A stretch of 64,000 bases of DNA from Erythrobacter sp. YT30 (lineage in GTDB: Bacteria > Pseudomonadota > Alphaproteobacteria > Sphingomonadales > Sphingomonadaceae): contig NZ_LMAF01000001.1 of NCBI RefSeq assembly GCF_001542875.1, positions 62,001-126,000 of the forward strand. The letters run 5' to 3'. A program made the translations under genes and the position numbers. Under the pieces are notes generated by a model, which saw nothing but the letters and a program-made list of their open reading frames with translations, was not told the DNA's origin and ran no database searches. This document shows, piece by piece, positions 8,982 to 13,091 of the stretch. Positions within the stretch are counted from its first letter, which is position 1. Each line of letters starts with the position of its first letter.

Positions 8982-9171
8982 TCGGGGAAAGGAAACGCGC
9001 CAAAGCGTGAACACCGGGTTGGCCGCTTGATTGCTGGGGGCGCTTCGGGCAATGGCGGCAAGCAACAGTGCAACAGGGATGGGCTGGGTGCATTTGTGCC
9101 AATGCCACAGAATTATCGCGTCTAAGGGCTGGGCGCGTAAAATGTTGGGTTAGACGGGAATACAGTTTTTG

Positions 9172-11883
9172 ATGAATCGATGCAGCGAGACAGGCCTAGC
9201 GTCTGCCACTGACAGCTTTGCGGCACCGCAGCGAACGTCGAATGCGGGCCGGATGATAATTGCGCTCACCTGCGGCTCTATGCTTGCAGGTGTGCCTTTT
9301 ACTGCGTCTGCACAGGACCAAGACGCTCAGGAAGCGCCAGTCCCCGCGACGACGCAGCAGAATGAACCTGCACCAGCGCCAGCACCCGCGCCTTCGACAA
9401 ACATCATCCGCACGATCAGCGTATCGGGTTCGGAGCGGCTCGAGCCGACGACAATCCTCAGCTATATCCGCTTGAGGGTAGGCGATGAATATACGTCTGC
9501 GGCCGCTGACCAAGCGTTGAAAGACCTTGGCGCGACGGAGCTATTTTCGCAGTTCAATATCCGCAATGATGGCGGCAACGTTGTCATCACGGTGACGGAA
9601 AACCCGGTGATCAACCGGATCGTGATTGAGGGCAACAAGCGGCTCGATAACGACAAGATACTTCCCGAAATCAAGCTGGCGCCGCGGCAAATCTTCACGC
9701 GTTCCAAAGTCCGTGCTGACGTTGCTCGCATCATTGAGCTTTATAAGAGGCAGGGACGCTTTGCTGCGACAGTTGAACCAAAAATGGTTCAGCTACCGCA
9801 GAACCGCGTCGATGTGGTTTTCGAGATCAGCGAAGGGCCAAAGTCCAAGGTTCGCCAGATCAACATCATCGGCAACGAAGAGTTCTCCGATGGAGAGCTG
9901 CGCGGTGAGATGGTCACGAAACAGGCTCGTTTCACGCGCTTCTTCAGCTCTAACACCAGCTATGACCCAGATCGCCTCGCGTTCGACCAGCAAAAGCTGC
10001 GGCAGTTCTATCTGACCGAAGGCTACGCCGATTTCCGTGTCGTCTCTGCCGTGGCGGAGCTTACTCCCGACCAGAAAGACTTCATCATCACCTACGTGGT
10101 GGAAGAAGGCGAGCGCTACAAGTTCGGCGAAGTCAAAGTAGACAGCCAGCTGCGCGACTTTGACAGCGATCGGATGACGCAGCAGCTCACCGTCAAGGGC
10201 GGCGACTGGTACAACGCTAAGTATGTAGAGGATACCGTTGAATCGCTGACGGAGGTTGCAGGGCGTTTTGGCTATGCGTTTGCCGACGTTCAGCCTCGCT
10301 TTAATCGTAACCCCGATGATCTGACGATGGATATCACCTTCATACTGCGTCAGGCACCGCGTGTTTACGTCGAGCGCGTTGATGTCAACGGCAATACCTT
10401 GACACAGGACAAGGTCGTCCGCCGCGAATTCCGTATCAGCGAAGGCGATGCTTTCAACTCTCTTGGCGTCCAAAGAACGACGGCTCGGATTAATTCGCTG
10501 GGCTATTTTCAGGAGAACTTCGAGGTCAATCAGGTACAAGGCAGCGCGCCTGACCGGATCATCCTCGAAGCCAACGTCGAAGAGCAGCCAACGGGCGAAT
10601 TGCAGTTTTCGGCTGGCTTCTCGTCGATTGAGCAGTTCATTCTCGCCGGCAGCATCCGCCAGCGCAACTTCCGCGGACGTGGTCAGACGATTGGTCTGAG
10701 CTTAAACTATTCGCAGTTCTCCCGATCGGCGCGGATCAGTTTCACCGAGCCGTATGTTTTCGATCGCAACATTCAGGCCGGCGTTGATATCTATCGGCAG
10801 GATTTCAACAGCTTCAACCGTTTTGGCAATGAGCGTAACAACACGTTTGAACAAGCCACCACCGGTTTTGCCGTGCGACTAGGCGTGCCTTTGACCGAAT
10901 TTATGTCGCTTGTTGGCAGTTACACGCTGAATTACGACGAAGTGAGCCTAGATGAACGCCTGTTCTTCACCGATCTTGATGGCGATGGCGTTCGCGGCAA
11001 CAGCCCAGACGACTTTTGCGATCCTTTAGCGGCTGGCCGTTTCCTTTGCGATGCCTTGGGAGATCGTCTGAGCTCGATCGTTGGCCTCAGCCTCAACTAC
11101 AACTCCTTGAACTCACGAATTCGCCCAACCCGTGGTCGCACGTTCTCGCTTACTTCTGAATTTGCGGGACTAGGCGGCGACGTTCGTTATGCGCGTTTCC
11201 GTGGTCGAGCGCAGCAATTCTGGAATGTCGCTAACTCCGGTTTCATCTTTTCGCTTTCGGCCGAAGGTGGAACCATCATTCCGCTGCGGGATCGTCCGGG
11301 CGAGGGTGTTGACGATATTCTGCTGACTGACCGTTTCTTCTTGGGTGAACCGCAATTCCGTGGCTTCGACATTCGTGGTGTTGGCCCGCGTATCTTGACC
11401 CAGCAATTACTCGTTGATGAGACCACTAACGAAATCATCGTGGTGACAGACCGCCAGCAAGTTCGGGATGATGCCATTGGTGGGCGCAATTTTTATCTTG
11501 CTCGTGCAGAGCTTGAAATCCCGCTGGGTACTGGCGCGCGTGAGCTTGGCCTCAGGCCATCAATCTGGGCTGACGTCGGTGCTCTATGGTCGGTCGAACA
11601 GCCGGTTCTTACCGTTGTTGAACCTGTGTTCCTCGACGGTGACAATCCTGGAGAAACGACTACAAATCCGTTTGCAGCTGATGGGTCCCTTAACACACTC
11701 GTCAGCAACGGTTTCCAAGAAGTATTCCTCGGAAACTCTCCCAGCCCGCGTATCACCGCCGGTATCGGCGTAAACTGGAATTCGCCTTTCGGGCCGTTCC
11801 GTATCGATTTCGCCCAGACCATTCGTAAGGTCGAGGGCGATGATGACAAAACCTTCACGTTCAACGTAGGAACTCAGTTCTAA
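9172..11883 (+). CDS. bamA: Outer membrane protein assembly factor BamA
   Basis: Omp85 core of the BAM machine that folds beta-barrels into the outer membrane. 903 residues: an unusually long N-terminal signal region ending in SAQDQ (about residue 45), a Pro/Ala-rich linker, five POTRA domains (about 75-490, beginning IIRTISVSGSERL), then a 16-strand barrel ending in the Phe of NVGTQF. A TTG lies directly upstream of the ATG, and an internal ATG at 9253 would give a more typical signal peptide. It overlaps skp by one base (TAATG). Confidence 0.96.
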   Translation: MNRCSETGLASATDSFAAPQRTSNAGRMIIALTCGSMLAGVPFTASAQDQDAQEAPVPATTQQNEPAPAPAPAPSTNIIRTISVSGSERLEPTTILSYIRLRVGDEYTSAAADQALKDLGATELFSQFNIRNDGGNVVITVTENPVINRIVIEGNKRLDNDKILPEIKLAPRQIFTRSKVRADVARIIELYKRQGRFAATVEPKMVQLPQNRVDVVFEISEGPKSKVRQINIIGNEEFSDGELRGEMVTKQARFTRFFSSNTSYDPDRLAFDQQKLRQFYLTEGYADFRVVSAVAELTPDQKDFIITYVVEEGERYKFGEVKVDSQLRDFDSDRMTQQLTVKGGDWYNAKYVEDTVESLTEVAGRFGYAFADVQPRFNRNPDDLTMDITFILRQAPRVYVERVDVNGNTLTQDKVVRREFRISEGDAFNSLGVQRTTARINSLGYFQENFEVNQVQGSAPDRIILEANVEEQPTGELQFSAGFSSIEQFILAGSIRQRNFRGRGQTIGLSLNYSQFSRSARISFTEPYVFDRNIQAGVDIYRQDFNSFNRFGNERNNTFEQATTGFAVRLGVPLTEFMSLVGSYTLNYDEVSLDERLFFTDLDGDGVRGNSPDDFCDPLAAGRFLCDALGDRLSSIVGLSLNYNSLNSRIRPTRGRTFSLTSEFAGLGGDVRYARFRGRAQQFWNVANSGFIFSLSAEGGTIIPLRDRPGEGVDDILLTDRFFLGEPQFRGFDIRGVGPRILTQQLLVDETTNEIIVVTDRQQVRDDAIGGRNFYLARAELEIPLGTGARELGLRPSIWADVGALWSVEQPVLTVVEPVFLDGDNPGETTTNPFAADGSLNTLVSNGFQEVFLGNSPSPRITAGIGVNWNSPFGPFRIDFAQTIRKVEGDDDKTFTFNVGTQF

Positions 11884-12575
11884 TGATTAAGCTTACCAAA
11901 ACGCTCGCCATTGCGGGCCTCGCACTTTCTGCCACTGTGGCTGCTCCGGCGATCGCTCAGGTTCAGGGCCGCGTCGGCACGGCCAGTATCTCCCGCGCAA
12001 TCCAAGGTACGACGGCGCTGCAAACCGCCTATAGCCAGGTCAACCAGACCTATAACGCCCAGATCCAAACTGCTCAGACAAAGCAGGGCGAGCTTTCCGA
12101 ATTGCTCAAGCCATTCGACACCGATGGCAATGGTGAAATCAACGAAACCGAAAGCGCTGCATTGCAGGCCGCTCCCAATTTCTCGCAAATTCAGACGCTT
12201 CAGCGCGAGATTGCCTCGATCAACGATCAGGTGACCGCAGCTCGCGTTTACGCGGTAGAGCAGGTTCTGGTACAATACCCTACCGCCCTCCAGGAAGTGG
12301 CAACGCAAAACCAGGTTCAGATGGTGGTTGATCCTGCCAGCCTTCAATATGCTGTCGAAGAAGCTGATATCACGCCGCTCGTTACGACCGCGCTCAACGC
12401 AAAAGTGCCGACAGTCGGTATCGTCCCGCCAAATGGCTGGCGTCCTGGTCCCAACACGTTGCAGGTTTTCCAGGAAATTCAGCGCCGTGCGCTTATCCAG
12501 CAGATCCGTGATCAGCAGGCGCAGCAACAGAACCAGCAGCAGAGCACGCAGCAGCAGGCTCCGGCAGGGCGGTAA
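11883..12575 (+). CDS. skp: OmpH/Skp-family periplasmic chaperone with an EF-hand motif
   Basis: Periplasmic chaperone expected to carry unfolded outer-membrane proteins to BamA. The Sec signal is cleaved after AIAQ (about residue 26). The OmpH-type start VGTASISRAI and long Gln-rich helical arms follow. At 230 residues it is longer than E. coli Skp. The extra length includes a perfect EF-hand loop pattern at residues 79-90 (Asp1, Asp3, Asn5, Gly6, Ile8, Glu12) and a Gln-rich tail. Start and bamA stop share one base, so the two are coupled. Calcium binding is inferred from the motif. Confidence 0.88.
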   Translation: MIKLTKTLAIAGLALSATVAAPAIAQVQGRVGTASISRAIQGTTALQTAYSQVNQTYNAQIQTAQTKQGELSELLKPFDTDGNGEINETESAALQAAPNFSQIQTLQREIASINDQVTAARVYAVEQVLVQYPTALQEVATQNQVQMVVDPASLQYAVEEADITPLVTTALNAKVPTVGIVPPNGWRPGPNTLQVFQEIQRRALIQQIRDQQAQQQNQQQSTQQQAPAGR

Positions 12576-12605: not shown

Positions 12606-13091
12606 ATGAGCGATACCGATCAAACCGGTGAGCAGAGCGCGATCGTGGACTATGATATTCATAAAGTCCTCAAAGCTCTGCCGCATCGCTATCCCCTCTT
12701 GCTGGTTGACCGAGTTCGCCGGATTGAGCTTGGAGAGCGAATTCATGCGGTGAAGGCCGTCAGCATGAATGAGGAGTTTTTTCAGGGTCATTTCCCTGGT
12801 GCTCCGATCATGCCGGGCGTTCTCCAGATCGAAGCGCTCGCTCAGGCCGCTGCAATCCTTGGTATCGAAACGCTGGAACTTGCTGGCACCGGAAAGCTCG
12901 TCATCTTTATGGGCATTGATGGCGCCAAATTTCGTGCGCCTGTCACCCCGGGTTGCTTGCTCGATCTCGAGGTTGAATTCCTCCAGAAGCGCCGGACGAT
13001 CTACAAGTTCAAAGGCAAGGCGAGTGTCGAGGGCAAGACCACTTGCGAGACCGAGTTTACCGCAATGATCGCCGATCCGCCTGGGGATTAG
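12606..13091 (+). CDS. fabZ: 3-hydroxyacyl-ACP dehydratase FabZ
   Basis: Dehydrates beta-hydroxyacyl-ACP in fatty-acid elongation; cytoplasmic hot-dog fold. 161 residues. Seen are [17 protein letters not shown] at the N-terminus, the catalytic His in [15 protein letters not shown] and the catalytic Glu in [21 protein letters not shown] segment precedes the ATG. In LPS-bearing bacteria lpxD and lpxA flank this gene, but both are absent here. Confidence 0.97.

Follow-up and report, generated by a model that had tools for sequence, protein, structure and literature searches.

An EF-hand-like loop at the arm tip of a Skp/OmpH chaperone and the apparent exchange of its gene among sphingomonads

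The bamA-skp-fabZ locus

The stretch of DNA analysed here (the window) comprises 64,000 nucleotides of Erythrobacter sp. YT30 (family Sphingomonadaceae; contig NZ_LMAF01000001.1, positions 62,001 to 126,000) and carries a gene for a Skp/OmpH chaperone in which a 12-residue EF-hand-like loop, a candidate calcium site, is predicted at the tip of the helical arm. The gene (skp/ompH; 11883..12575, + strand) encodes 230 amino acids. It lies directly downstream of bamA (9169..11883, +), whose stop codon overlaps its start codon (TAATG), and is followed by fabZ (12606..13091, +), where identity recovers in loci with an exchanged skp; both neighbours were taken from the list of open reading frames (ORFs). 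Among the 117 loci compared, a bamA match stands beside skp in 116 and a fabZ match in 115. The BamA and FabZ rows nearest to the window are those of Erythrobacter rubeus and E. ani (85% identity to E. rubeus). Skp proteins carrying the loop are referred to below as EF type, and other Skp proteins of the family as ordinary type.

An earlier note on this DNA had given the start codon and translation of the ORF correctly, and its assignment of the product to Skp/OmpH is borne out by the Pfam OmpH profile (PF03938), which the window protein matches at 40.7 bits against a cut-off of 32.4. The same profile matches all 39 members of set A1, the window protein included, at E ≤ 1. Within its own genome the protein has a single match at E ≤ 0.001, namely itself. 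An AlphaFold model of the window protein (single chain without metal, 39 input sequences) has a mean predicted local distance difference test score (pLDDT) of 88.9. It shows the beta core and long two-helix arm of a Skp fold, and its nearest solved structures are Caulobacter OmpH (4kqt), Escherichia coli Skp (1sg2/1u2m) and SkpA (8gl8). VIA Z-scores are 11.4 for 4kqt (root-mean-square deviation, rmsd, 8.2 over 155), 10.0 for 1sg2_C (rmsd 6.5 over 141) and 9.5 for 8gl8_G, with the first unrelated row at 6.0; the large rmsd to solved Skp structures would be expected if the arms bend. Foldseek also matched 4kqt (E 3.5e-4), and a sequence-profile search placed it on top (E 8.5e-7), followed by EF-hand proteins aligned on the loop. 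According to the tool's own note, VIA Z-scores below about 13 are common among helical proteins, which tells against the fold match, so it is chiefly the Pfam match that carries the fold claim.

Residues 1–26 (11883..11960, +) form a predicted signal peptide with a basic start, a hydrophobic core and an alanine-rich end, its cleavage site being placed by inspection only; pLDDT is below 50 for most of residues 1–20.

An EF-hand-like loop at the arm tip

Residues 79–90 (12117..12152, +) read DTDGNGEINETE, that is, D-T-D-G-N-G-E-I-N-E-T-E, and loop positions 1, 3, 5, 6, 8 and 12 are occupied as the earlier note had stated. The window protein thus has acidic or polar residues at positions 1, 3 and 5, a hydrophobic residue at position 8 and an acidic one at position 12. 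The note had placed the loop within the helical arm, which holds; the model puts it more precisely at the arm tip, in a region where pLDDT is 93–96 (residues 71–100). As assigned by DSSP, the descending arm helices (residues 44–78; 12012..12116, +) consist of segments 44–56 and 58–78, the latter being the entering helix of the EF-hand; residues 79–87 form the loop, and the exiting (F) helix spans residues 88–96 (12144..12170, +). Helices therefore flank the loop on both sides in the structure prediction, as the note had proposed to check. In classical EF-hands the exiting helix starts at loop position 10, and the modelled helix begins at the same position, residue 88. The ascending arm helices follow at residues 100–142 (12180..12308, +), with segments 100–130 and 132–142. 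A model of an ordinary-type Skp of the family (29 sequences, mean pLDDT 88.3) instead shows a helix at 60–88, a turn at 89–94 and a helix at 95–119. In these models, the EF-hand replaces the plain arm-tip turn of ordinary Skp.

Several features weigh against a typical EF-hand. Position 13 is hydrophobic in classical EF-hands, but the window protein has Ser91 there, and among the 41 EF-type proteins described below this position is Leu, Ile or Val in 12 and Trp in two more. The Pfam EF-hand cut-offs are not reached by the window protein, either for its best profile, EF-hand_8 (13.9 bits against 28; E 0.045), or for EF-hand_1 (11.5 bits against 25.4); for this reason, we describe an EF-hand-like site and not a Pfam EF-hand protein. 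The translation holds one loop per chain and hence lacks a two-loop lobe, and EF-hands usually function in pairs. Across set A1, EF-hand_5 matches 24 of the 39 members at E ≤ 1 (best 3.5e-4).

The EF-type arms are also rich in glutamine, with a mean of 17.8 Gln in about 75 residues outside the loop (residues 44–78 and 91–130 in the window protein). The C-terminal tail of the EF type is Gln/Pro-rich and ends mostly in -GR, and that of the window protein is Gln-rich.

Conservation of the loop

Conservation was assessed in 41 proteins labelled EF type by regular expression (regex) or, for L028 and L083, by alignment. The label is not circular, since a 133-row tree built without residues 66–104 groups exactly these 41 proteins in one clade (support 99). 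Glu12 is present in all 41, Asp1 in 40, and Asp or Asn in all 41 at both position 3 and position 5; position 8 is Leu, Val or Ile in 40. Positions 4 and 9–11 vary. The mean entropy of the six loop positions is 0.67 bits, compared with 1.77 for the rest of the arm, and when six arm columns were drawn at random, 45 of 100000 draws gave a value that low. The exiting helix is variable apart from A93, kept in 38 of the 41, and 12 of the 41 have gaps at 94–96.

The chance of the loop pattern occurring in one protein of this length, estimated for 219 sites with the composition of four proteins of the window, is 0.84% for a relaxed and 0.019% for a strict pattern. The ligand conservation in the 41-row clade is a stronger argument than this estimate, and on its strength a chance match was rejected. 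The conservation is nevertheless imperfect, and this counts against a calcium site: Gly6 is found in 32 of the 41 and lost in 9, and some members have damaged loops, with Asn at position 1 (L028), Thr at position 8 (L083) or Ser at position 6 (L146).

The two types also differ in charge. Over residues 70–104 the mean net charge is -3.6 for the 41 EF rows, as against +0.3 for 69 rows of ordinary type and +0.8 for 23 outgroup rows from the class. The EF type concentrates acid at the arm tip, a region with almost no net charge in the remaining Skp proteins of the family and class.

Distribution of EF-type Skp

An EF-type profile scored at least 195 bits in 92 of 397 family genomes (hand count), and the loops of all 92 were read; the last 39 of these fit the regex without exception. 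One further EF loop lies below 195 bits, in G155 (L302, 169 bits). EF-type Skp is therefore present in at least 93 of the 397 genomes, 91 of the 93 fitting the regex; the number is a lower bound because the loops of lower-scoring genomes were read in part. For the conservation across sphingomonad OmpH proteins that the earlier note had asked about, the picture is divided: close and distant EF-type orthologues carry the loop, and 71 of the 110 loci sampled depart from the pattern. In the window's own genus all 11 genomes have the loop, so it is not missing from close orthologues, as would have spoken against the note. A general sphingomonad trait was rejected, with the regex fitting 39 of the 110 sampled loci and the loop found in at least 93 of the 397 genomes. 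Both Skp types occur within ten genera (g3, g7, g9, g15, g38, g44, g66, g79, g89 and g91).

The EF regex is absent from the 25 best-scoring loci outside the family (L191–L215), taken from a search of the class in which 155 of 385 genomes matched. In other families of the same order (99 genomes) matches are weak, with a best E of 6.7e-10, and their loops were left unread; a contig scan with the single window protein as query found no relative. The names of carriers, among them Aurantiacibacter rhizosphaerae, Blastomonas marina and Qipengyuania aestuarii, suggest several habitats. A further 76 named loci had been fetched by two patterns, one of which contains the loop; they were excluded from the frequencies and the 41-row counts and included in the 104-row trees described below. 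Some family genomes (G057, G212 and G225, with L066, L077 and L078) have three or four OmpH-domain matches, and a distant paralogue group (L036, L066, L077, L078 and L104) stands apart in the 133-row tree.

Single origin and apparent exchange between species

From the 117 loci, 112 with all three genes and a BamA longer than 800 amino acids were kept (L186 was set aside by name), and removal of identical Skp ends left 104 rows. Built without residues 66–104, the 104-row Skp tree places the EF and ordinary types on the two sides of one branch (support 99, one change), and the split also appears in trees of only the C-terminal body or of the loop-free arm. With 23 outgroup rows from the class (133 rows, the short L196 and L198 being left out), the EF rows form one clade of 41 within the family. 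EF-type Skp is of single origin; independent gains of the loop are an unneeded explanation, as these proteins form one side of a branch even when the loop is removed.

On the tree of BamA and FabZ, the EF label changes 11 times among the 104 rows with L146 labelled EF, and 12 times with L146, which has Ser at position 6, labelled non-EF. Because ordinary-type rows were deliberately drawn from genera with both types, these counts belong to the sample and are not a rate. A single EF clade is rejected on BamA and FabZ by the approximately unbiased (AU) test (p-AU 4.7e-9, 34 rows). It is likewise rejected on AspRS (p-AU 7.1e-10, 30 rows), a marker that lies about 29 kb away in the window and at a similar distance in many genomes and is thus not fully unlinked; the AspRS tree has 10 changes of the EF label, 8 of them forced by well-supported branches (30 genomes). 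The label is still clustered on the 104-row BamA and FabZ tree, where 1 of 500 shuffles gave as few changes, and in the smaller sets, which are enriched for mixed genera, its clustering does not exceed that of shuffled labels (152 of 500 shuffles as low for 34 rows, 375 of 500 for 30 rows). As a separate observation, the AspRS of G158 and G008 (L332, L334) groups away from their own genera, which suggests that it was transferred too.

Pairwise comparisons locate the discordance at skp. Nine mixed pairs, each within one genus, show protein identities of 69–84% for BamA, 78–92% for FabZ and 26–37% for Skp; one of them, G278/G089, has 84%, 92% and 29%, respectively. Three same-type pairs have 70–92% identity in Skp where BamA has 80–96%. 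At the DNA level, identity in five mixed pairs is 62–90% in the last 120 bases of bamA and 30–65% through skp, and climbs again around the start of fabZ. Breaks near the skp ends are seen in L224/L226, L237/L238, L240/L239, L248/L247 and L254/L253, and two same-type pairs have no such trough over skp. One comparison does not fit this pattern: the window protein and L246, both EF type and from the same genus, share 28% identity in Skp and 74% in BamA.

Congruence with the flank tree, tested without the long-branched L184, differs between the types. For ordinary rows, of which one set of 15 was used, the flank tree is not rejected (p-AU 0.10, log-likelihood 13.6 lower). The 88 EF rows reject it (p-AU 0.002), and every one of 15 overlapping subsets, each of 15 EF rows drawn at random, does so as well (log-likelihood 46 to 437 lower). 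EF-type Skp looks like an allele that has been exchanged horizontally, and repeatedly, between species at the bamA-skp-fabZ locus; in the simplest reading, inheritance mostly accounts for the ordinary type, whereas the EF type is mobile. Such an allele would spread by recombination through its conserved neighbours, bamA and fabZ.

Discussion

The arm-tip EF-hand probably serves as a constitutive structural Ca2+ site, one per arm and three per expected trimer, and we hold this view with moderate confidence. The sequence of the loop predicts Ca2+ binding, likely with the modest affinity of an unpaired EF-hand. Glu at position 12 of an EF-hand is the usual bidentate ligand and favours Ca2+ over Mg2+; since this position is Glu in 41 of 41 EF rows and never Asp, Ca2+ would be the preferred ion. 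Periplasmic Ca2+ tracks the medium. In calcium-rich water, behind an outer membrane open to small ions, the site would be loaded nearly always, and a site filled most of the time in seawater is likelier to be a structural staple than a sensor. As a staple, the ion would fix the helix-loop-helix turn at the tip of a Gln-rich arm. Bound Ca2+ would also offset the negative charge of the tips, so that the three could come together around a client barrel protein; without it, the acidic tips would repel each other.

Close relatives manage with an ordinary Skp that lacks the loop, which limits the importance that can be given to the site: chaperoning in itself does not require calcium. Since either type is found in closely related species, the EF site is better regarded as a variant of arm behaviour than as a requirement for Skp function.

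A more dynamic role can be built from the same anatomy, an arm-tip loop between helices with conserved ligands. In its fullest form, three EF-hands would close the cavity with Ca2+ and open on Ca2+ loss near the membrane, and the allele would be spreading among Erythrobacteraceae and their relatives, displacing the ordinary skp time and again; we regard this calcium-controlled chaperone as doubtful. A Ca2+ switch as such, in which the EF-hand loads and empties with periplasmic Ca2+, gates the cavity and times client capture or hand-over to BAM, is unlikely in our assessment. It draws on E. coli Skp, in which clients go in at the open ends of the arms (PMC3458824) and each arm is a flexible two-helix coiled coil, stiffer on client binding (PMC7577714). 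A lone EF-hand, however, is usually a weak, non-cooperative binder, and seawater holds Ca2+ at a steady millimolar level; both points tell against switching.

It is distinctly improbable that the tip is primarily a docking site, a dockerin-like knob to which BAM, a protease or the outer-membrane surface would bind, Ca2+ doing no more than keep it in shape. The modelled position at the arm tip, the conservation of A93 and the loop ligands where the rest of the tip varies, and SkpA of 8gl8, by its entry title an example of a Skp built into a larger machine, would suit such a knob. Against it, the exiting helix is variable except at A93 (38 of 41) and differs in length (gaps at 94–96 in 12 of 41), and an allele that moves without bamA and fabZ speaks against a tightly co-evolved partner next door.

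A metal-free acidic loop, an Asp/Asn-rich turn kept for solubility or charge, would account for the unmet Pfam cut-offs, the atypical position 13 and the minority without Gly6, but is very improbable given that conservation falls on ligands 1, 3, 5 and 12 (Glu12 in 41 of 41) while positions 4 and 9–11 vary, and that the modelled helix boundaries fit an EF-hand. The patchy distribution might reflect an old tandem skp pair with one copy kept per lineage instead of transfer, as both types occupy the same locus; this is very unlikely, because two Skp ORFs occur in none of the 117 loci (each up to 7.7 kb), two full-length strong matches occur in none of 16 genomes (four have a weak or partial second match, unread), and sorting alone would leave both types congruent with the flank tree, which the EF type rejects and the ordinary set does not.

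The structural site favoured here can be set against known systems. The window protein shares with E. coli Skp (1sg2/1u2m) and Caulobacter OmpH (4kqt) its Pfam family, fold, signal-like start and bamA-adjacent gene, and differs in its arm-tip EF-hand and Gln-rich C-terminal tail. Its type also has a net-negative tip, whereas the tips of E. coli Skp carry much positive charge and stay apart from one another (PMC9820271). The Skp fold is also shared (Z 9.5) by SkpA of the type 9 secretion translocon (8gl8), which by its entry title belongs to a secretion complex. Single unpaired EF-hand-like Ca2+ loops, reportedly structural, are said to occur in the bacterial extracytoplasmic proteins Slt35 and AlgQ; the loop of EF-type Skp differs in forming the tip of a coiled-coil chaperone arm and in being expected three times per trimer. 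With calmodulin-type paired EF-hands it has the loop consensus in common, residues ~67–90 aligning with calmodulin loops in a phmmer search (whole-sequence E 2.6e-4, single stretches weak), but there is one loop per chain and no two-loop lobe. No description of an EF-hand in Skp was found in the literature searched, most subscription papers being outside its scope; the word calcium is absent from the main texts of PMC7577714, PMC9820271 and PMC3458824, and the words OmpH, Skp and chaperone were not found in PMC10574481.

Skp is a model ATP-independent chaperone, and what drives its uptake and release of clients when no energy source is at hand is a long-standing problem. The EF type, a naturally occurring Skp whose predicted metal site lies where clients enter, offers a handle on this question, as its arms might be set by an ion. 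The occurrence of ordinary and EF alleles in similar neighbourhoods of related species amounts to a natural swap experiment, and the exchange of one chaperone gene within a conserved operon is of note in its own right. Its repeated replacement suggests that the type of arm is under shifting selection, and also hints that calcium may matter in building the outer membrane of these sphingomonads.

A side observation concerns the neighbouring BamA. A stretch of the protein encoded by ORF 9169-11883, FFTDLDGDGVRGNSPDDFCDP, contains, just ahead of a cysteine, a DxDxDG motif similar to a calcium loop, and probably lies in an extracellular loop. Among the rows compared, the motif shows no clear link with the EF allele: 72 of the 88 EF rows have it, as do 10 of the 16 ordinary ones. 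Calcium sites may be present in BamA as well as in the adjacent Skp; among the 104 aligned BamA rows the motif is found in 82, and the cysteine that follows it is invariant (104 of 104).

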